From: Bacilli bacterium
GTDB taxonomy: Bacteria > Bacillota_I > Bacilli_A > RF39 > UBA660
Assembly (NCBI GenBank): GCA_017459965.1
Contig: JAFUBW010000010.1
Location: 1-47,712 of the forward strand
Direction: 5' to 3'
DNA length: 47,712 nt
In this document: piece after piece, positions 4,009-11,519 of the stretch
How the letters are laid out: every line of letters begins with the position of its first letter
Position numbering within the stretch: position 1 is the first letter of the stretch
Translations under genes and position numbers: made by a program
Notes under the pieces: generated by a model
Databases searched by the model: none
The model's input: only the letters and a program-made list of their open reading frames with translations
Told to the model about the DNA's origin: nothing

Positions 4009-4959
4009 TTAATTATTAACTAATTGTTTTTTAGATAATTTATAGGTTGTTACCAATATATTATCTTTTTTATTATATTTTAATATTCCTTTATCATTTT
4101 TCTTACATATTATTATTCCTATTGTTTTATTGTGATATGGTTTTCTTATTTCCGTATCATAATAATTTATATAAAATTCTAATTGACCTATATCTCTTAT
4201 ATCTAATTTTTTTATTTTTAATTCTATTAAAACAAAACAATTCAATTCTATATTAAAAAATACTAAATCTATAAATCTATAATTATTTCCTACTTTTATT
4301 CTTTGTTCACTTCCTACAAAAGAAAAACCTACTCCCAAATTAAGTAATGTTTTTTCTATATTTTCAAGCAATATTTCTTTAAGTACTCTTTCATCAATTT
4401 TTTCAATTATCAATTTATCACATTCTATTATTATCGGATCTTTTATCATATCTATTATTTTTGGTTCATATGACTCTTTAAGTAATTTTATATTATTTTT
4501 ATTTGGTGATATTAATCTTTCATATGATTTTGATTTTATTTCTTCAATTAACTTTCTTACCGTTAATCTGTTTTGTATACATAAGTTAATATAATAGTTT
4601 CTTTTACTTTCCTCTTTTATTGGTAAAATATATCTATAATGAGACCAACTCAAAAGGTCGCACATTGTGCGACTTTTTTTAAAAGTCAAATATAATTGTC
4701 TCATATTTTTTAAATTCGTATAATTATATCCTTTACCATAAAGAGTAGTTAATTCTTTTGAATATTCTTTTAATAGACTTTTACCATATTCACTTCTAAT
4801 GCCTATGGCTTCTACTATTTCTCTTCCTATATTATAATATGTTTCTAATCTATTTCTTTCTTTTATAATATTTGATTTTCGCTGAAATACTATATTACTT
4901 TCTATTAGTTCTTTTATTCTTTTTAAATTTTCATCTTTTAAGTTTACTTTATTTTCCAT
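4009..4959 (-). CDS. DUF1016 / YhcG-like PDDEXK nuclease-domain protein
   Basis: 316 residues. The N-terminal half (DUF1016_N) is helical: ETYYNIGREIVEA, LYGKGYNYTNLKNMRQLYL and SWSHYRYIL. The C-terminal half is a PDDEXK nuclease-like domain: LGVGFSFVGSEQR, then RFIDLVFFN (Asp ~231) and VLIELKI (Glu ~246, Lys ~248), giving the D...ExK triad. The family is patchily distributed, often beside restriction-modification, toxin-like or mobile genes, and its activity is poorly characterised. Here it is a lone gene between ribosomal-protein and SipW operons, with a perfect GGAGG ribosome site and a repeat directly upstream. No obvious terminator follows it. Probably acquired; catalytic residues look intact. 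Confidence 0.88.
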   Translation of the reverse strand: MENKVNLKDENLKRIKELIESNIVFQRKSNIIKERNRLETYYNIGREIVEAIGIRSEYGKSLLKEYSKELTTLYGKGYNYTNLKNMRQLYLTFKKSRTMCDLLSWSHYRYILPIKEESKRNYYINLCIQNRLTVRKLIEEIKSKSYERLISPNKNNIKLLKESYEPKIIDMIKDPIIIECDKLIIEKIDERVLKEILLENIEKTLLNLGVGFSFVGSEQRIKVGNNYRFIDLVFFNIELNCFVLIELKIKKLDIRDIGQLEFYINYYDTEIRKPYHNKTIGIIICKKNDKGILKYNKKDNILVTTYKLSKKQLVNN

Positions 4960-4973
4960 GATTATATACCTCC

Positions 4974-5025
4974 AATATATATATTCGTCAAAAAAAATAA
5001 AATTCCCCTATAAAAATCAAAAAAA
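4974..5025. repeat. Dispersed ~50 bp repeat, copy A
   Basis: Shares the blocks AATATATATATTCGTCA and ATTCCCCTATAAAAAT, joined by an A-rich stretch, with copy B at 8615-8665. On the minus strand it ends 14 bases before the start of the DUF1016 gene, so it forms that gene's upstream region. Identity is nearly complete apart from one or two indels in A runs. Confidence 0.75.
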
Positions 5026-5060
5026 TTACGAACACAGATAGAGTTGTGTAAAAATTGGCA

Positions 5061-5091
5061 TAAAAAAAGAAATGGATTATTTATCCATTTC
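5061..5091 (-). terminator. Terminator of the sipW operon
   Basis: Nine-pair stem GAAATGGAT/ATCCATTTC, 5-base loop, T-rich tail on the minus strand. It overlaps the end of the DUF5305 gene. Confidence 0.88.
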
Positions 5092-6081
5092 TTGTCTTGT
5101 TACTGTATATTCATAAATTTCATTATCAATAATTAAGAATTTACTAACATTTTCATTTTCTTTTATATATATAATAGCTTTTTCAACATTATTTCTTACA
5201 TCTAATAATTCTTTAAAGCTTCCTACTTTGATTATTGGTTTGTTAGTTGAATAATTTTGTTCTTTTGATTCAGTTATATATGAATCATAATCTCTTAATA
5301 TTTTCTTTATAAATCTTTCATATTTACTTTCTTTAGCTTTTCTTCTTATTATTTGTGCGATTAAAGCTAAAACTAAGATTATTGTTACTACACCTAGTAT
5401 TAGTGATATTGTAAGCATTAAACTATTGATTGTAGCCTTTGTAGTTGTTCCTAAATATGTATTTGTAGAATTAATATTATCACTCTTTGTAATATTAATC
5501 ATTTGTTGTGATAATGGAATAGTTACATTAAGTAATCTATTTTGTTTAATATCACCATATTCATTTTCATAATATACATAATATGATACAACTAAATTAC
5601 AATCTGCACTTATCGCATAATTTGTTTTAAACTCATTAGTTAAACCATTGTATTTTTTATAATCGATTTTTATATTATCTTGTAGATTAATTTCATCGCT
5701 TGTTACTGTTTCTTCTTTTATAACATCTTGTTTACTATATATGATCTTATCATTTTTATCCGAATCAACTATTTTTACATCTGCTAAAACCTTTTTATTA
5801 ATTGTATAACTATTTTCTTGTTCAAATTTAACATTGTAATTATAGTTTATATCAATATAATCTATAATACTAGATATATATTGCATTCCTTCATCCAAAT
5901 AATCTCTATTATAATATTTTTTATCTGTTAAATATACTTTATAATTTATATTACTTTTTTCAGTATATCTAATTTCACCAGTTGATTTAATTGTTTTTGA
6001 TTCTTTATAGAAATAACCAGTTAAAATTGCAAATACTATTATTCCTATTATAATAACTATCTCTTTTTTATTCTTTTTCAT
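5077..6081 (-). CDS. DUF5305 family membrane protein
   Basis: 334 residues from the ATG at 6079-6081, which has AAGGAG 7 bases ahead. A GTG 30 bases further up is in frame but overlaps the previous gene and lacks a site. Membrane segment at residues ~8-25, an exported domain of ~190 residues, a second membrane segment at ~221-245, and a ~90-residue cytoplasmic tail. The exported part has the DUF5305 pattern: NINYKVYLTDKKYYNRDYLDEG followed by YISSIIDYIDINYNYN and KTNYAISADCNLVVSYYV. DUF5305 proteins are known mainly next to SipW-like peptidases and TasA-like proteins in archaea and some Firmicutes; function is undefined. Cotranscription with the peptidase suggests a role in processing, anchoring or assembling the secreted subunits. 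Confidence 0.75.
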   Translation of the reverse strand: MKKNKKEIVIIIGIIVFAILTGYFYKESKTIKSTGEIRYTEKSNINYKVYLTDKKYYNRDYLDEGMQYISSIIDYIDINYNYNVKFEQENSYTINKKVLADVKIVDSDKNDKIIYSKQDVIKEETVTSDEINLQDNIKIDYKKYNGLTNEFKTNYAISADCNLVVSYYVYYENEYGDIKQNRLLNVTIPLSQQMINITKSDNINSTNTYLGTTTKATINSLMLTISLILGVVTIILVLALIAQIIRRKAKESKYERFIKKILRDYDSYITESKEQNYSTNKPIIKVGSFKELLDVRNNVEKAIIYIKENENVSKFLIIDNEIYEYTVTRQEMDK

Positions 6082-6094
6082 ACTAACTCTCCTT

Positions 6095-7225
6095 CTAATC
6101 AAATACTTCACTTAACCAAATACTTGGAAGTCCTATATATTTTATTCTATGAAGTGTTATACCAATAACATCTTCTTGTTTAGTTACTGTATTATCTTCT
6201 TGATTGTTATTATCACCTTTTGTAGTAAAGTAAAGTTGTCCACTTCTTTCTACTACTTTAGTAACTCTATGGTTTATTATTTTATTATCATATCTAAATA
6301 CTAATATATCACCTTTTTTAATTTCTTTTAGTTCATCATTCTTCATTCTTTCTAAGAATATCACATCACCCTTTTCCATATAAGGATACATTGAATTAGA
6401 ACCTATTACCATAATTTGATATTTTAGTAAACCAGAATTTAATAACACTAACATTAACAATATTACGGTTACTACTAAGTAAAATTTATTTAATTTTTTC
6501 CTATCCTTAGGTTTATCAACAACTTTTTTCTTTTCTGTATTAATAACCATAAATGATATTAATACTGGTAAAATTATCAATGCGACTGATTCTAAATATG
6601 GACCTAAATTTGGAACTATTATAACAACATATATTAATTCTTCCATTATAATTCTATATAAAATGCCAGGATAGGCGTCAGTCCTAGTATTTAAAACAGT
6701 CATTAATATGTTTTTAGATATACTTGCGATTACTACTAATCCTATATATTTGTATACTTCTTCTTTTACTGCCATATTATAGGCACCAAAACTATAACTA
6801 GATTCAAATAATATAAATAATATACAAGATGTTATTAAAACTAATTTATTTTTATTTGTTTTATTTATAAGTTCATGTCTTATTAATTCCATTAATACTA
6901 TTGTAAATAATGTAGGTAAAATATTATTTATTAAATTTGAAAATGTATAACTATATATTGTTCTAGCAAATCCTATAAATAAACCTGCTAGATAAATAAT
7001 AATATAATATATAAATATATATATTAATATATTTCTAATTACATTTTTATCATTAGCATTTCTTTTTAAATCTATACCCAAAGAAAAAAATGTAATAAGT
7101 AAAGCAATAGCTAAAAAAATAATTTGTCTATCATGATTGAATATAACAGGGAAAATGAAATTTAATAATGCACTAATTCCTAGTAAAATTTCAATCAATA
7201 AACATTTTTTAACACTAGTTTTCAT
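6095..7225 (-). CDS. SipW-type (ER-type) signal peptidase I with extended N-terminal membrane domain
   Basis: 376 residues from the ATG at 7223-7225 (AGGA 8 bases ahead; a GTG two codons up is too close to the site). The last ~105 residues are the peptidase: VIGSNSMYP with catalytic Ser ~278, then GDVIFLE, KKGDILVFRY, INHRVTKV with His ~319 where bacterial-type enzymes have Lys, and FTTKGDNNNQED. Ser plus His marks the archaeal/eukaryotic-like SipW class, which in Bacillus processes TasA and TapA. The first ~270 residues hold about nine membrane segments, far more than SipW (~190 residues, two segments). Lies 28 bases after a TasA-like gene and 13 bases before DUF5305, so it is one operon with substrates next door. 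Confidence 0.88.
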   Translation of the reverse strand: MKTSVKKCLLIEILLGISALLNFIFPVIFNHDRQIIFLAIALLITFFSLGIDLKRNANDKNVIRNILIYIFIYYIIIYLAGLFIGFARTIYSYTFSNLINNILPTLFTIVLMELIRHELINKTNKNKLVLITSCILFILFESSYSFGAYNMAVKEEVYKYIGLVVIASISKNILMTVLNTRTDAYPGILYRIIMEELIYVVIIVPNLGPYLESVALIILPVLISFMVINTEKKKVVDKPKDRKKLNKFYLVVTVILLMLVLLNSGLLKYQIMVIGSNSMYPYMEKGDVIFLERMKNDELKEIKKGDILVFRYDNKIINHRVTKVVERSGQLYFTTKGDNNNQEDNTVTKQEDVIGITLHRIKYIGLPSIWLSEVFD

Positions 7226-7253
7226 TTTCACCTTCCTATTCTTTTATTTTTTA

Positions 7254-7820
7254 TTAGTTTTGTACATAATCAAATACAGCATTTATATTGGATATTTCTA
7301 TTTTTTTGCCAGGCATAGAAGTTACTGAATCATCTAATTTTAATGTTAAAGTAACACTTCTTCTTTCATTTACTTTTAATATATCTGAAGTTTTAATATT
7401 ACTCCCATCAGTATATTTTATACTATAAATAATTGAATTACATATAACATCACTAGGTTCACAAGTTGGTGTACTTTTTACATAATTATATAATTTAGCA
7501 TCTAATTCACCATTATTAACTATATCAAATGTATATGTTACATAATCACCTGGTTTGTTAAAATTAACATCTAAACCACTTATTATAGTCTTACCTTCTG
7601 ATATAACAGCAGGGGATATTATTTCTGCAGCATCACTATTTGAATTAGGCTTTTGAACTAAATTTTCAAAATGAATATCCCAATTAGTATTGTTAACTGA
7701 TGCCATATTTATTATTTGAAGTCTTCTAGTAAAATTGGCATATACAATAGTCATTGAGATAATACCCATAATTAGAATTGCAATTAAGATTTCTTTATAA
7801 TCTCTCTTTATACTATCCAT
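7254..7820 (-). CDS. TasA/camelysin-like SipW-dependent secreted protein, operon-linked paralogue (P1)
   Basis: 188 residues from the second ATG (7818-7820), chosen because AGGAG sits 8 bases before it; an in-frame ATG six codons up lacks a site. Signal segment at residues ~10-28 ends VYAN. Shared family motifs: NWDIHFENL (~46), FNKPGDYVTYTFDIVNNGELDAKL, one Cys pair (~123 and ~130), and the C-terminal AVFDYVQN. The paralogues use AYA-A/S at the cleavage region, so this is the most divergent of the four. It is first in the operon with the peptidase and DUF5305. Likely an exported beta-sandwich matrix or fibre subunit, perhaps a minor or anchoring one (inference). Confidence 0.8.
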   Translation of the reverse strand: MDSIKRDYKEILIAILIMGIISMTIVYANFTRRLQIINMASVNNTNWDIHFENLVQKPNSNSDAAEIISPAVISEGKTIISGLDVNFNKPGDYVTYTFDIVNNGELDAKLYNYVKSTPTCEPSDVICNSIIYSIKYTDGSNIKTSDILKVNERRSVTLTLKLDDSVTSMPGKKIEISNINAVFDYVQN

Positions 7821-7846
7821 ACTGCATTCTCCTATCATACATTTTG

Positions 7847-7875
7847 ATTATATATTATTAGTTAACTTTTGTCAA
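7847..7875 (-). promoter_or_regulatory. Sigma-A promoter of the P1-sipW-DUF5305 operon
   Basis: TTGACA (7870-7875), 17-base spacer, TATAAT (7847-7852): a full consensus match on the minus strand. Confidence 0.93.
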
Positions 7876-7880
7876 TGAAG

Positions 7881-7911
7881 TACAAATAAAAAAACATAGA
7901 AATTCTATGTT
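7881..7911 (-). terminator. Terminator of P2
   Basis: Eight-pair stem AACATAGA/TCTATGTT with a 3-base loop and T7 tail on the minus strand. It overlaps the P2 stop codon and separates it from the P1 promoter. Confidence 0.88.
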
Positions 7912-8464
7912 AATTTTGTGAAAAAATCCAGTTAGCACTTATATTCGCACTTACATCATCACTTATACTTGCATCATCATTAAACTTTAATGATAAAGTA
8001 CAATTAATTGTTTCATTAGCATGTAATATATTATTTTCTTGAAATAAATTACTATTAGAATCTAAACATGATATTAAAAAATTAGCATGTGAACAATCAT
8101 TACCACAAGTTATATTACTATTAAATGATGTAAGTTTGGCATCTATATTACCAAAATTTTTAATATCAAATGTATAAACTATTGAATCCCCTGGTTTTTT
8201 AAGCTCTGCTTTTAAATTATTTATAGATGTCCCAGAAGTTGAAACTGATTTAATTTCACCAGTATTAGTTTGCCCAGATGTTGTATTAGCTGGAGTAGAT
8301 GATGATGAAAAATTAATAAAATGTATATCCCAATTAGCACTTGGAGAGCTTATAGTACCACCAATATTTAAATTAGTCGCAAGTGATGCATATGCGATTG
8401 AAATAGAAACTATAACAATACCAAGTAAAATTAAAATAACAGTTTTTCTATTATCATTATACAT
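7910..8464 (-). CDS. TasA/camelysin-like SipW-dependent secreted protein (P2)
   Basis: 184 residues. Signal segment at residues ~8-25 ending IAYA|S. Then TNLNIGGTISSPSANWDIHFINF, a Ser/Thr/Gly-rich stretch, LKKPGDSIVYTFDIKNFGNIDAKLTSF, and a region with four Cys (ITCGNDC, ISC, INC) that probably forms two disulfides. It ends ANWIFSQN. Folding as an exported TasA/camelysin-type beta sandwich is inferred from the SipW-class signal and the WDIHF and PGD...F.I.N.G motifs. AAAGGGTGAT ribosome site. Single-gene unit with its own promoter and terminator. Confidence 0.82.
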   Translation of the reverse strand: MYNDNRKTVILILLGIVIVSISIAYASLATNLNIGGTISSPSANWDIHFINFSSSSTPANTTSGQTNTGEIKSVSTSGTSINNLKAELKKPGDSIVYTFDIKNFGNIDAKLTSFNSNITCGNDCSHANFLISCLDSNSNLFQENNILHANETINCTLSLKFNDDASISDDVSANISANWIFSQN

Positions 8465-8490
8465 CTCTTATCACCCTTTACTCTATAATA

Positions 8491-8519
8491 AATATACATT
8501 ATAAATAAAGTTTTGTCAA
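8491..8519 (-). promoter_or_regulatory. Sigma-A promoter of P2
   Basis: TTGACA (8514-8519), 17-base spacer, TATATT (8491-8496) on the minus strand. Confidence 0.85.
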
Positions 8520-8614
8520 TGAAACAAATATCTATAAATGTAAATATCTATACTGCTTCATACTCTTTAGAAAATATTCTTTTATCTGAGCAATATTCCC
8601 AAAAAATATATTCT

Positions 8615-8665
8615 AATATATATATTCGTCATAAAAATAAAAATTCCCCTATAAAAATAAAAAAA
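8615..8665. repeat. Dispersed ~50 bp repeat, copy B
   Basis: Second copy of the repeat at 4974-5025, same orientation, in the 258-base spacer between P2 and P3. Here it is not followed by a DUF1016 gene. On the minus strand it begins in the T tail of a hairpin and is followed by ~95 bases without recognisable coding before the P2 promoter. It may mark a lost cassette. Confidence 0.75.
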
Positions 8666-8684
8666 CTTCTAAAAAATAGAAGTT
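8654..8684 (-). terminator. Second (tandem) terminator downstream of P3
   Basis: Nine-pair stem AAACTTCTA/TAGAAGTTT with a T-rich loop and long T tail on the minus strand. It sits just after the first P3 terminator and merges into repeat copy B. Confidence 0.7.
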
Positions 8685-8690
8685 TATATA

Positions 8691-8723
8691 AATAAAAAAT
8701 CATAGTTTATATTAAACTATGAT
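8691..8723 (-). terminator. Terminator of P3
   Basis: Eleven-pair stem ATCATAGTTTA/TAAACTATGAT with a 3-base loop and T-rich tail on the minus strand. It begins at the P3 stop codon. Confidence 0.88.
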
Positions 8724-9310
8724 TAATTTTGTACATAAGTCCAAGCCATATTGAATGTACCTGCACCATCATTTGATGTATAAGTTTGATTAGCATCTTG
8801 TGAAACTGTTGCAGCAGCACGAGAAATTACTAAAGTACAATGAGCTGTATCTGTATCACCATCATTAGTTGCATAAAGTACATTATTAGCAGTTGAAGCA
8901 GCTGTATCACATGCTAAATTATAAGTGATATCGTTACAATTTTTACCATCTGTACATCTAATTCCACCTGTTGGAGCAGAAGTTAATTTAGCATCTATTG
9001 TACCAGCATTAACTATATCCCATGAATAAGTAATACTATCTCCTGGTTTTGGTAAATTAACAGCTACATCTGATATTGCAGTTGCATTTAAGTGACCACC
9101 TGTAGTTAATTCTTCAGCAGTTGGACCAGTTGCAGAACCAACTACAGTACCTTTAGCAAAATTAATAATATGTACATCCCAACTAACAGATGGAGATTGA
9201 ACGCTACCACTAATACTTAAATTAGTTTGAAGTGCTGCATAAGCAATAGTCATACCAACTAATATAACACCTAAAACTGCAAGTGCTACACTTTTACTAT
9301 TCCCTCTCAT
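8723..9310 (-). CDS. TasA/camelysin-like SipW-dependent secreted protein (P3)
   Basis: 195 residues. Signal segment at residues ~8-25 ending AYA|A, then LQTNLSISGSVQSPSVSWDVHIINF. Middle motif LPKPGDSITYSWDIVNAGTIDAKLTS, four Cys (IRCTDGKNC, LACD, AHC), and C-terminus MAWTYVQN. Rich in Ala, Thr and Gly, with little Lys after the signal, unlike the Lys/Asn-rich average of the window. That is typical of abundant exported fibre or surface proteins. AAAGGAG ribosome site; the leader AATAGGAAAGGAGAA is shared with P4. Monocistronic. Probably a major subunit; assembly into fibres is inferred from family resemblance to TasA. Confidence 0.85.
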   Translation of the reverse strand: MRGNSKSVALAVLGVILVGMTIAYAALQTNLSISGSVQSPSVSWDVHIINFAKGTVVGSATGPTAEELTTGGHLNATAISDVAVNLPKPGDSITYSWDIVNAGTIDAKLTSAPTGGIRCTDGKNCNDITYNLACDTAASTANNVLYATNDGDTDTAHCTLVISRAAATVSQDANQTYTSNDGAGTFNMAWTYVQN

Positions 9311-9339
9311 ATGTTCTCCTTTCCTATTATTACAATATA

Positions 9340-9368
9340 ATATTATCTAAAAATAATAAACTTGTCAA
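9340..9368 (-). promoter_or_regulatory. Sigma-A promoter of P3
   Basis: TTGACA (9363-9368), 17-base spacer, TAATAT (9340-9345) on the minus strand. Confidence 0.88.
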
Positions 9369-9370
9369 TA

Positions 9371-9399
9371 TAATAAAAAAACACTGTGTAAAACAGTGT
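9371..9399 (-). terminator. Terminator of P4
   Basis: Seven-pair stem ACACTGT/ACAGTGT, 5-base loop, T6 tail on the minus strand, followed at once by the P3 promoter. Confidence 0.88.
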
Positions 9400-9419
9400 C
9401 AATTTATATAATAGTAAAA

Positions 9420-10094
9420 CTATTTTTGAACATATGACCAACTAGCATTTAAACTGAATGTTCTATCATTGTTATCACCAGCAGTTTGATCTGTACCAGC
9501 TGTATGACTATTAGTTAACTCATTATATTCTACATATAATTCACATTCAACTTTGTCATTGTTTCTATCAATTTCTTGGCCAGCATTTAATGCTACTGGA
9601 GCAACTGCAGTAGCTCTTGCTTCACCACATTTAACAGTATAAGTTATACCATCATTAATATCATTTTCTTCTGTTGTAGTTGGTGTAGCTGGTGTAGTTT
9701 TTACAATTGATTTATTAAATGATCCTAATTTTGCATCGATTGTACCTGCATTAACTATATCAAAATTAACTTTTACCCAGTCACCTGGTTTATGTAAAGA
9801 CACAATTAAATTATCAATTAAAGTACCAGTTGCATTATTAGTACCTGTAGTACTTAGCGATTCTGAATCTAAAGTACCCATTGAAGTTACAGTTCCTTCA
9901 TTTGTACCAGCTAGTAAATTATTTTGTCCAGTTACATTTTGTACATTAGCAAAATGAATATCCCATCTAGTTGCATCAACATTAGCAGTACCATTAATAG
10001 TTAATGTAGTTGATAATGCTGCATATGCTACAGTCATTGATACTAAACCAACGATTAATACTCCTAATAGAATATTTTTACTTTTTTCTGACAT
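9420..10094 (-). CDS. TasA/camelysin-like SipW-dependent secreted protein (P4)
   Basis: 224 residues, the longest of the four. Signal segment at residues ~8-25 ending AYA|A, then LSTTLTINGTANVDATRWDIHFANV. Motif LHKPGDWVKVNFDIVNAGTIDAKLGSF, followed by a Thr/Pro/Asn-rich insertion. One Cys pair (VKCGE and VECEL) and C-terminus ASWSYVQK. Very Thr/Ala/Asn-rich. AAAGGAG ribosome site and a leader like P3's, so P3 and P4 look like the most recent duplicates. Monocistronic, with full promoter and terminator. Exported TasA-like subunit by the same reasoning as P3. Confidence 0.85.
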   Translation of the reverse strand: MSEKSKNILLGVLIVGLVSMTVAYAALSTTLTINGTANVDATRWDIHFANVQNVTGQNNLLAGTNEGTVTSMGTLDSESLSTTGTNNATGTLIDNLIVSLHKPGDWVKVNFDIVNAGTIDAKLGSFNKSIVKTTPATPTTTEENDINDGITYTVKCGEARATAVAPVALNAGQEIDRNNDKVECELYVEYNELTNSHTAGTDQTAGDNNDRTFSLNASWSYVQK

Positions 10095-10128
10095 GTTTTA
10101 CTTCTCCTTTCCTATTTTTACATTATTT

Positions 10129-10157
10129 ATTTTAGAATAAAAATTAAAGGTTGTCAA
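10129..10157 (-). promoter_or_regulatory. Sigma-A promoter of P4
   Basis: TTGACA (10152-10157), 17-base spacer, TAAAAT (10129-10134) on the minus strand. Confidence 0.9.
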
Positions 10158-10170
10158 TATGTTTTAAAAA

Positions 10171-10204
10171 AGAAAAATAAAAAATTGCTATTTTGTAGCA
10201 ATTT
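10171..10204 (-). terminator. Terminator of the cdaA-cdaR operon
   Basis: Nine-pair stem AAATTGCTA/TAGCAATTT, 5-base loop, T-rich tail on the minus strand, overlapping the cdaR stop. Confidence 0.88.
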
Positions 10205-11519
10205 TTATTTTTGTTTCAGTAACTTTTGGTTCATATTTTACTCTAGGATCTTCACCTTTTACTTTGATTTTTACTTTGTGTTCTCCTTCTTTTAAGCCAT
10301 CTAAATCTATATAAGCTTCTATAGATGTTGAATCTATATTAGATATTACTGATTCTACACCTTTTAATATTACAGATATTTCTGTTTGATTTTCACTTAA
10401 TGCTTGTACTGTATAATTTGAACCTAAGTTAATATAACTTAATCTTACTCCTGATATTTCAGTAGTGGCTTCGTTATCAAGTTCTATTTTAATATTTACT
10501 GTTTTTTCAGATATTTCTCTTATACCTGATGGTTTTTTAATAGATACAGTGTAATCTTTATTATTTTTAAGATCACTTACATCTACTTGTACTTTTATAC
10601 TATTAGTATTTTCTAGTGTCTTAGAATCTCCATATATAGTTACTTTTTGTACACTAGAATTAATTGTTTTAATAGCTTTACCAAATACTACATTACCTGT
10701 TGTTTCTACTTCAAGTGGTACATCTTTCTTAGGCGATTCTATTTCTATAGTAGCATTTACTTTTGCTGGGACCATTTCTATATCCATTTTAGTACCGTTT
10801 TCATCATATGCGACAAGGTCTACATCTTTAAGTGTATTTGTCCCTGCGGCTGGATTTGCCATGTTATTAACATTAACAAGTGCTTTTATTGTTGATACTT
10901 TTTCTAAATCTGAACTAGATCCTTTTATTATTACTTCTTCTTGATCTAATTTAACACTATTTATAGATAGTTTAGAATCAAGTTTATTAATATTTACTAT
11001 ATCTGATTTTATTTCTCTTGTTTCTGATTGTTTTGGAGATACTACAACTGTTACTTGTGATGGATCAAGTTTATATTCTACAGATGATATTGATTGTTTA
11101 TATTTTAAATTTACTTTATGCACACCTGGTTTTAAATCACTTAAATCTACTGTAACATCTTGAGCTGGTAATTGTTTAGCTAAATATAGATTAGCTTTTG
11201 TACCAATTAATGTAATATCTACTGTTTTTGGAAGACCTTCTATTACATATTCTTCATCATTATATGTAGCTGAAATTGGTCTATTATATATTACTTCAGC
11301 ATTTGTTTCTAAAAGAGTTGTATTATGTCTATCAACTATAAAGAATACAATAACTGCGAATATTAACGATAAGACTATTAAACTACTTTTTTTACTTATT
11401 GCTTTTTCAAGTGGTTTATCGGTTATTTTTAATTTTTCACCAATAAATACAAAGAATTTTGTTATTGGTATTATAAAATGTTTATCTATAAATCTAAATA
11501 ATTTCTTAATTAATTTCAT
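10188..11519 (-). CDS. cdaR: YbbR-domain protein CdaR, regulator of the diadenylate cyclase
   Basis: 443 residues. A cytoplasmic N-terminus of ~45 residues is followed by one membrane segment (~46-62) and an exported part of ~380 residues built from about four YbbR repeats. Repeat marks include EYVIEGLPKTVDITLIG, VIIKGSSSDLEKV, VTIYGDSKTLENTNSI and ISVILKGVESVISNIDS, each followed by a V.VD...L strand. YbbR/CdaR binds CdaA and modulates c-di-AMP synthesis. Its start overlaps the end of cdaA by 14 bases, with GAGGATGAG as ribosome site. The usual third gene, glmM, is not adjacent. Confidence 0.92.
   Translation of the reverse strand: MKLIKKLFRFIDKHFIIPITKFFVFIGEKLKITDKPLEKAISKKSSLIVLSLIFAVIVFFIVDRHNTTLLETNAEVIYNRPISATYNDEEYVIEGLPKTVDITLIGTKANLYLAKQLPAQDVTVDLSDLKPGVHKVNLKYKQSISSVEYKLDPSQVTVVVSPKQSETREIKSDIVNINKLDSKLSINSVKLDQEEVIIKGSSSDLEKVSTIKALVNVNNMANPAAGTNTLKDVDLVAYDENGTKMDIEMVPAKVNATIEIESPKKDVPLEVETTGNVVFGKAIKTINSSVQKVTIYGDSKTLENTNSIKVQVDVSDLKNNKDYTVSIKKPSGIREISEKTVNIKIELDNEATTEISGVRLSYINLGSNYTVQALSENQTEISVILKGVESVISNIDSTSIEAYIDLDGLKEGEHKVKIKVKGEDPRVKYEPKVTETKIKIATK

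Follow-up and report, generated by a model that had tools for sequence, protein, structure and literature searches.

We analysed a 47,712-nucleotide stretch of DNA (the window; contig JAFUBW010000010.1 of a Bacilli bacterium), in which six adjacent genes of this small-genome gut bacterium probably make up a surface-fibre cassette of the class of TasA and the archaeal bundling pilus, whose subunits would polymerise by donor-strand exchange. The six genes span 5077-10094 on the minus strand and are transcribed from high to low coordinates, the order among the window's open reading frames being cdaA, cdaR, P1, P2, P3, P4, signal peptidase, DUF5305. As a first-pass annotation of this DNA had noted, they form an unbroken row, four of them coding for secreted proteins related to one another, one for a Ser/His signal peptidase and one for a DUF5305 protein. 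The four were said to surround the other two; the adjacency holds, but P1-P4 are all located upstream of the peptidase, with DUF5305 on its downstream side. The same annotation proposed a separate version of an exported fibre or surface-coat system, and this reading is now supported by the homology to the archaeal pilus protein AbpX and by the conserved linkage described below, with fibre formation still a prediction. Also in agreement with it, no TapA- or SinR-like gene adjoins the cluster among the open reading frames of the window, the rest of the genome not having been searched for either. The genes are as follows.

9420-10094, minus strand: P1, TasA/AbpX-like secreted subunit, 224 amino acids, likely abundant
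8723-9310, minus strand: P2, TasA/AbpX-like secreted subunit, 195 amino acids, likely abundant
7910-8464, minus strand: P3, TasA/AbpX-like secreted subunit, 184 amino acids, structure predicted
7254-7820, minus strand: P4, TasA/AbpX-like secreted subunit, 188 amino acids, at the head of the probable P4-peptidase-DUF5305 operon
6095-7225, minus strand: signal peptidase, Ser/His (ER/Sec11-type), 376 amino acids, with an extra N-terminal membrane domain of ~250 residues
5077-6081, minus strand: DUF5305 protein, 334 amino acids, with a transmembrane (TM) helix, an Ig-like ectodomain, a TM helix and a small cytosolic domain

Three of these starts were revised. That of P4 was moved from 7838 to 7820 (the longer frame, 7254-7838, has 194 amino acids) on the basis of an AGGAGA Shine-Dalgarno sequence and the orthologue in locus L051, and those of the peptidase (7231 to 7225) and DUF5305 (6111 to 6081) on the basis of Shine-Dalgarno placement and relatives.

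We then compared the four secreted proteins with each other and with fibre proteins of solved structure. Their paralogy and shared motifs were borne out: P1-P3 are 28-35% identical to P4, and 27 columns are invariant across P1-P4, including WD.H, KPGD, DI.N.G..DAKL and the penultimate Gln. When the whole genome was queried with P3, P1, P2 and P4 were recovered at E 1e-17 to 1e-30, and a genome-wide search with the subunit profile detected P1-P4 and a fifth copy only, located N-terminally in a protein of 1250 residues on contig C9. A profile of 33 subunit sequences matched AbpX, the solved bundling pilus protein of the archaeon Pyrodictium abyssi (PDB 9sj2, 9rhp), at E 3.7e-9, in an alignment that begins at the mature N-terminus and covers the strand after it, and a broader profile of 78 sequences did so at E 1.2e-9. 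An archaeal subunit from Zestosphaera, which is adjoined by the same long peptidase and DUF5305, matched AbpX on its own at E 2e-7. On profile similarity, the subunits thus qualify as homologues of a solved donor-strand fibre class, although the cassette here has a bacterial host and four divergent subunits. TasA, in contrast, was matched weakly (E 0.03-0.05), via the KPGD...F...N.G stretch, so that AbpX, and not the TasA of the annotation, is the closest relative of solved structure. Fibres of AbpX type and those of TasA are both built by donor-strand exchange (PMC11952670, PMC9674648).

The N-terminal region of the subunits is also in keeping with such fibre proteins. In 127 of 137 cleavage sites, located by pattern, the second residue after the cut (P2') is F, L, V, W or Y. 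TasA has F at P2' and is cleaved by SipW, and this aromatic residue is one of several traits that protect TasA from the ordinary signal peptidase of E. coli but not from SipW (PMC10269814). Leu32, in the segment that follows the cleavage site, is one of the few nearly invariant residues and is kept in at least 90% of the 33 subunits. The AlphaFold model of P3, with a predicted local distance difference test (pLDDT) score of 85, consists of a helix (5-28), an unpaired stretch (29-46) and a beta-sandwich (47-183), and the unpaired stretch with the conserved Leu32 looks as a donor strand would be expected to. A beta-sandwich behind an unpaired N-terminal segment, which donor-strand fibres require, is predicted here, but fold comparison by itself did not single out TasA.

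The peptidase turned out to be only in part what the annotation called SipW-type. It is of the Ser/His type, passing the ER/Sec11-type family TIGR02228 (92.7 bits vs a cut-off of 51.85) and matching the Sec11-type structure 7p2q at E 6e-24, and Ser278, His319, Asp338 and Asp344 are invariant in 30 peptidases from bacteria and archaea. It is not a plain SipW, however, since it reached 64.8 bits against the SipW equivalog NF046067, under the curated cut-off of 190 bits, and since a membrane domain of ~250 residues precedes its catalytic part. This domain matched no Pfam or NCBIfam model at or above cut-off; in a mostly hydrophobic segment of it, Glu113 is invariant and Arg116 nearly so among the same 30 sequences. 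A housekeeping role was rejected, because a separate classical signal peptidase I is encoded on contig C13, and the long peptidase is thus most likely dedicated to the cassette.

The DUF5305 protein matched PF17231 over the full model at 51.3 bits (gathering cut-off 29). In its predicted structure (pLDDT 94.5), two helices flank an Ig-like ectodomain, and a small cytosolic domain follows the second of them. This ectodomain resembled many Ig-like domains (Z 6.4-7.8), none of them diagnostic. In B. subtilis, TapA has an Ig-fold, is located at the membrane and donates the first strand to TasA (PMC10151520). By its topology and linkage, we infer that DUF5305 is the best candidate for TapA's job, or for a partner of the peptidase.

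To survey the conservation of the three-part module, we used the peptidase as bait and collected 80 peptidases in 79 loci of the named genome collection, counting as neighbours genes within three genes. As a result, a subunit gene was found near 77 and a DUF5305 gene near 75 of the 80 peptidases, with DUF5305 immediately downstream in 70. With DUF5305 as bait and the same distance, the peptidase was present in 21 and a subunit gene in 22 of 28 loci, several of those lacking a partner being cut by contig ends. The 79 loci come from gut Bacilli and Clostridia, Saccharibacteria (L083, L091), Dehalococcoidia of the Chloroflexota (L130) and Desulfovirgula (L127), and include archaeal ones from a Thermoplasmata archaeon (L110) and Zestosphaera (L132). 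DUF5305 beside such peptidases, which the annotation had described as known mostly from archaea, is therefore common in bacteria (gut Bacilli and Clostridia, Saccharibacteria and Chloroflexota). Furthermore, among 60 relatives, all 19 genomes with the full-length peptidase carry both subunits and DUF5305 (Fisher p about 1e-12), and shorter Sec11-type peptidases without the extra domain occur in genomes without subunits and DUF5305. The consistent linkage that the annotation had asked about is thus present in relatives; with this and the AbpX homology, neither of the two outcomes that it had named as refuting arose. Since the flanking genes vary, it is the cassette and not the surrounding region that is conserved.

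These results lend good support to a cassette that works like the TasA and AbpX systems, and we propose the following course of assembly. P1-P4 would be exported via Sec with a signal anchor, and the dedicated Ser/His peptidase would cut after A-x-A, with a large hydrophobic residue at P2'. The cut would release the conserved N-terminal strand, which may then enter the open beta-sandwich of the next subunit to build a fibre chain. Of the four subunits, P1 and P2 are probably abundant and P3 and P4 minor. DUF5305 probably keeps the fibre attached to the membrane as it grows, or offers the first strand or groove, which is what TapA does in B. subtilis. Large repeat proteins that share this N-terminus, such as the one on contig C9, are probably incorporated as adhesive fibre ends.

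As a variant of this proposal, DUF5305 could, instead of anchoring or initiating the fibre, be permanently associated with the peptidase as an accessory subunit, much as SPC22/23 is with Sec11, and serve cleavage rather than polymerisation. Its position immediately downstream of the peptidase in most loci, the Sec11 likeness of that enzyme, the membrane-tethered Ig-like ectodomain and the pairing with the same peptidase type in archaea and bacteria are all in line with this. However, its second TM helix and its cytosolic domain set DUF5305 apart from SPC22/23, which is not known to have either, and three DUF5305-positive genomes (G004, G005 and G018), although drafts, gave no match to the long peptidase. 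No SPC22/23 chain was among the Foldseek or VIA matches listed for the DUF5305 model, which is inconclusive as evidence. On balance, we consider the accessory-subunit role rather unlikely.

We judge it improbable that the subunits are instead monomeric or cell-associated surface proteins, forming a coat or diverse adhesins, which the peptidase processes and which do not polymerise. Their copy number and sequence vary widely; a large family expansion was observed in one genome of ~1.3 Mb (G028), which has 46 TasA/AbpX-like domain hits, many of them in proteins of ~600 amino acids. Many genomes also fuse the subunit domain to large proteins with Listeria-Bacteroides repeats, and the predicted fold is a generic beta-sandwich. 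On the other hand, the homology to the polymerising AbpX takes in the N-terminal strand, this strand is conserved though unpaired in the monomer model, and a dedicated Ser/His peptidase and hydrophobic P2' sites are typical of TasA-type fibres. Several results do weigh against a polymerising cassette. P1-P4 scored 12.3-14.3 bits against the camelysin/TasA family PF12389, under the curated cut-off of 22.5 bits, and a search of the genome with this family gave no match at E <= 0.001. The P3 model aligned with the TasA fibre structure 8aur at Z 5.4 (119 residues, 3.5 A), many other beta-sandwiches scoring equally, and in a Foldseek search with this model no match reached E <= 0.001, 8aur standing at rank 24; TasA kinship by fold search alone was thus dropped as not diagnostic. 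In addition, a sequence search for a solved relative of DUF5305 gave none, its proposed role being drawn from topology and linkage.

That the four genes are recent, redundant duplicates with a single function, kept for dose or antigenic variation, is quite improbable: recent tandem duplicates are frequent in other genera and elsewhere in the family (L058 has six closely related copies), but P1, P3 and P4 pair one-to-one with orthologues that keep their order in a sister species (G002), and therefore split before those species, P2 lacking such an orthologue, and each gene has its own promoter, with codon usage that differs among P1-P4.

Returning to the donor-strand fibre cassette, we compared it with characterised bacterial systems. 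The tapA-sipW-tasA operon of Bacillus subtilis likewise has a Ser/His peptidase beside secreted beta-sandwich subunits, with A-x-A and hydrophobic P2' sites and the KPGD...N.G motif, whereas the cluster here has DUF5305 instead of TapA beside it, a camelysin score below cut-off and a peptidase twice as long. The sipW-bsaABCRSD genes of Clostridium perfringens (PMC7395162) also link a peptidase to a secreted protein, which forms biofilm filaments without sortase; unlike the cassette, that system has its own two-component regulator, and DUF5305 is not described in it. The sipW-tasA, calY and capP region of Bacillus cereus (PMC13082335) shares several TasA-type subunits and an assembly factor other than TapA, but CapP is a secreted, chaperone-like, cell-wall-associated protein, in contrast to the two-helix membrane protein with an Ig-like ectodomain found here.

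TasA-like systems have already been described as widespread, including in archaea (PMC10903470), and the kind of system is thus known. As far as we searched the literature, what is new is the constant third gene DUF5305, which was not named there, the long peptidase by which the system can be recognised, and the large proteins with the subunits' N-terminus. DUF5305 is thereby given a context, as a recurring partner of TasA/AbpX-type subunits and the long peptidase in gut Bacillota, Saccharibacteria, Chloroflexota and archaea, and as the gene that may replace TapA, which makes the anchoring of such fibres testable. Surface fibres are also predicted for many uncultured gut bacteria whose genomes are tiny, which we did not find stated in the literature searched. 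More tentatively, it is possible that the long peptidase, through its Glu113/Arg116 domain, and DUF5305 form one membrane machine in bacteria and archaea, coupling signal-peptide cleavage to a chaperoned handover of the donor strand, such that subunits pass from the translocon to the membrane-anchored fibre and are never free. If true, this machine would be a third assembly route besides chaperone-usher and sortase pili.

Next, we examined the transcription signals of the locus, all on the minus strand.

10129-10157: P1 promoter, TTGACA-17-TAAAAT, 11/12 match
9340-9368: P2 promoter, TTGACA-17-TAATAT, 10/12 match
8491-8519: P3 promoter, TTGACA-17-TATATT, 11/12 match
7847-7875: P4-operon promoter, TTGACA-17-TATAAT, 12/12 match
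10150-10205: stem-loop with T-run 3' of cdaR, parting cdaA-cdaR from P1 (fold; not flagged by the terminator scanner)
9380-9400: P1 intrinsic terminator (terminator scanner and fold)
8655-8730: two stem-loops with T-runs downstream of P2, putative terminators (folds; not flagged by the scanner)
7880-7920: stem-loop with T-run downstream of P3, putative terminator (fold; not flagged by the scanner)
5067-5093: terminator ending the P4-peptidase-DUF5305 operon (terminator scanner and fold)

A promoter scan thus placed perfect or near-perfect sigma-A promoters 26-34 nt ahead of all four subunit starts, and because terminators or stem-loops lie between the genes, P1, P2 and P3 are probably separate transcription units and P4-peptidase-DUF5305 one operon. 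Codon adaptation, for which a small set of ribosomal and elongation-factor genes from the window served as reference, was 0.85 for P2, 0.81 for P1 and for EF-Tu, 0.73 for P3 and P4, and 0.69 for the peptidase; the ribosomal-protein-like usage of P1 and P2, resembling that of highly expressed genes, suggests that these two subunits are the abundant ones. A tie of the cassette to cyclic di-AMP through the upstream cdaA-cdaR was considered but found no support, because the terminator-like stem-loop and a separate promoter intervene and the flanks of relatives differ. In another genus (L037 1-4789), cdaA-cdaR directly follow a DUF5305 gene, so that its neighbours are those of the window but on the opposite side.

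The 1250-amino-acid protein on contig C9 (genome G000; L140 2361-6113) begins with the signal peptide and first strand of the subunits and continues into Listeria-Bacteroides repeats, and is a candidate adhesin carried on the fibre. Relatives have a large protein (400 to 2600 residues) with the same signal peptide and first strand, often downstream of DUF5305; its counterpart in this genome is the protein on C9. In the window, a YhcG/DUF1016 nuclease gene (4009-4959) comes directly after DUF5305, and a broken relative of it (L140 6146-7039) comes directly after the repeat protein on contig C9. Because the large protein follows DUF5305 in relatives, one may speculate that YhcG copies have parted the DUF5305 half from the large-protein half in this genome.

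Between P2 and P3, the minus strand at 8557-8674 holds what is left of a YhcG gene after a deletion that fused the promoter to the final codons. As this remnant reads toward P3 with no evident terminator between, P3 could also be driven by the regulon of the repeated promoter. This promoter-like sequence of ~50 nt (TTAGGGGAATTTTT...GACGAATATATATATT) has about 20 copies in the genome, at 4971-5027 and 8612-8668 (minus strand) of the window and at about 18 further places (L143-L161). Its core gave 16 exact matches vs 0 for the reversed control; two copies were found in a sister species and none in the other seven genomes. The 57-nt repeat at these two window positions was considered as a cassette part or transposon, and was set aside as a promoter-like sequence common to DNA-processing genes. 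Indeed, the sequence often lies just 5' of YhcG nucleases, KilA-N and BRO-N proteins, an MvaI/BcnI endonuclease and a UvrD-like helicase. It also precedes DnaG, DNA ligase, a ComEA-like protein, a thioester-domain surface protein and a C39 exporter, and its copies look like an alternative-sigma regulon of the SigH/ComX, competence type.

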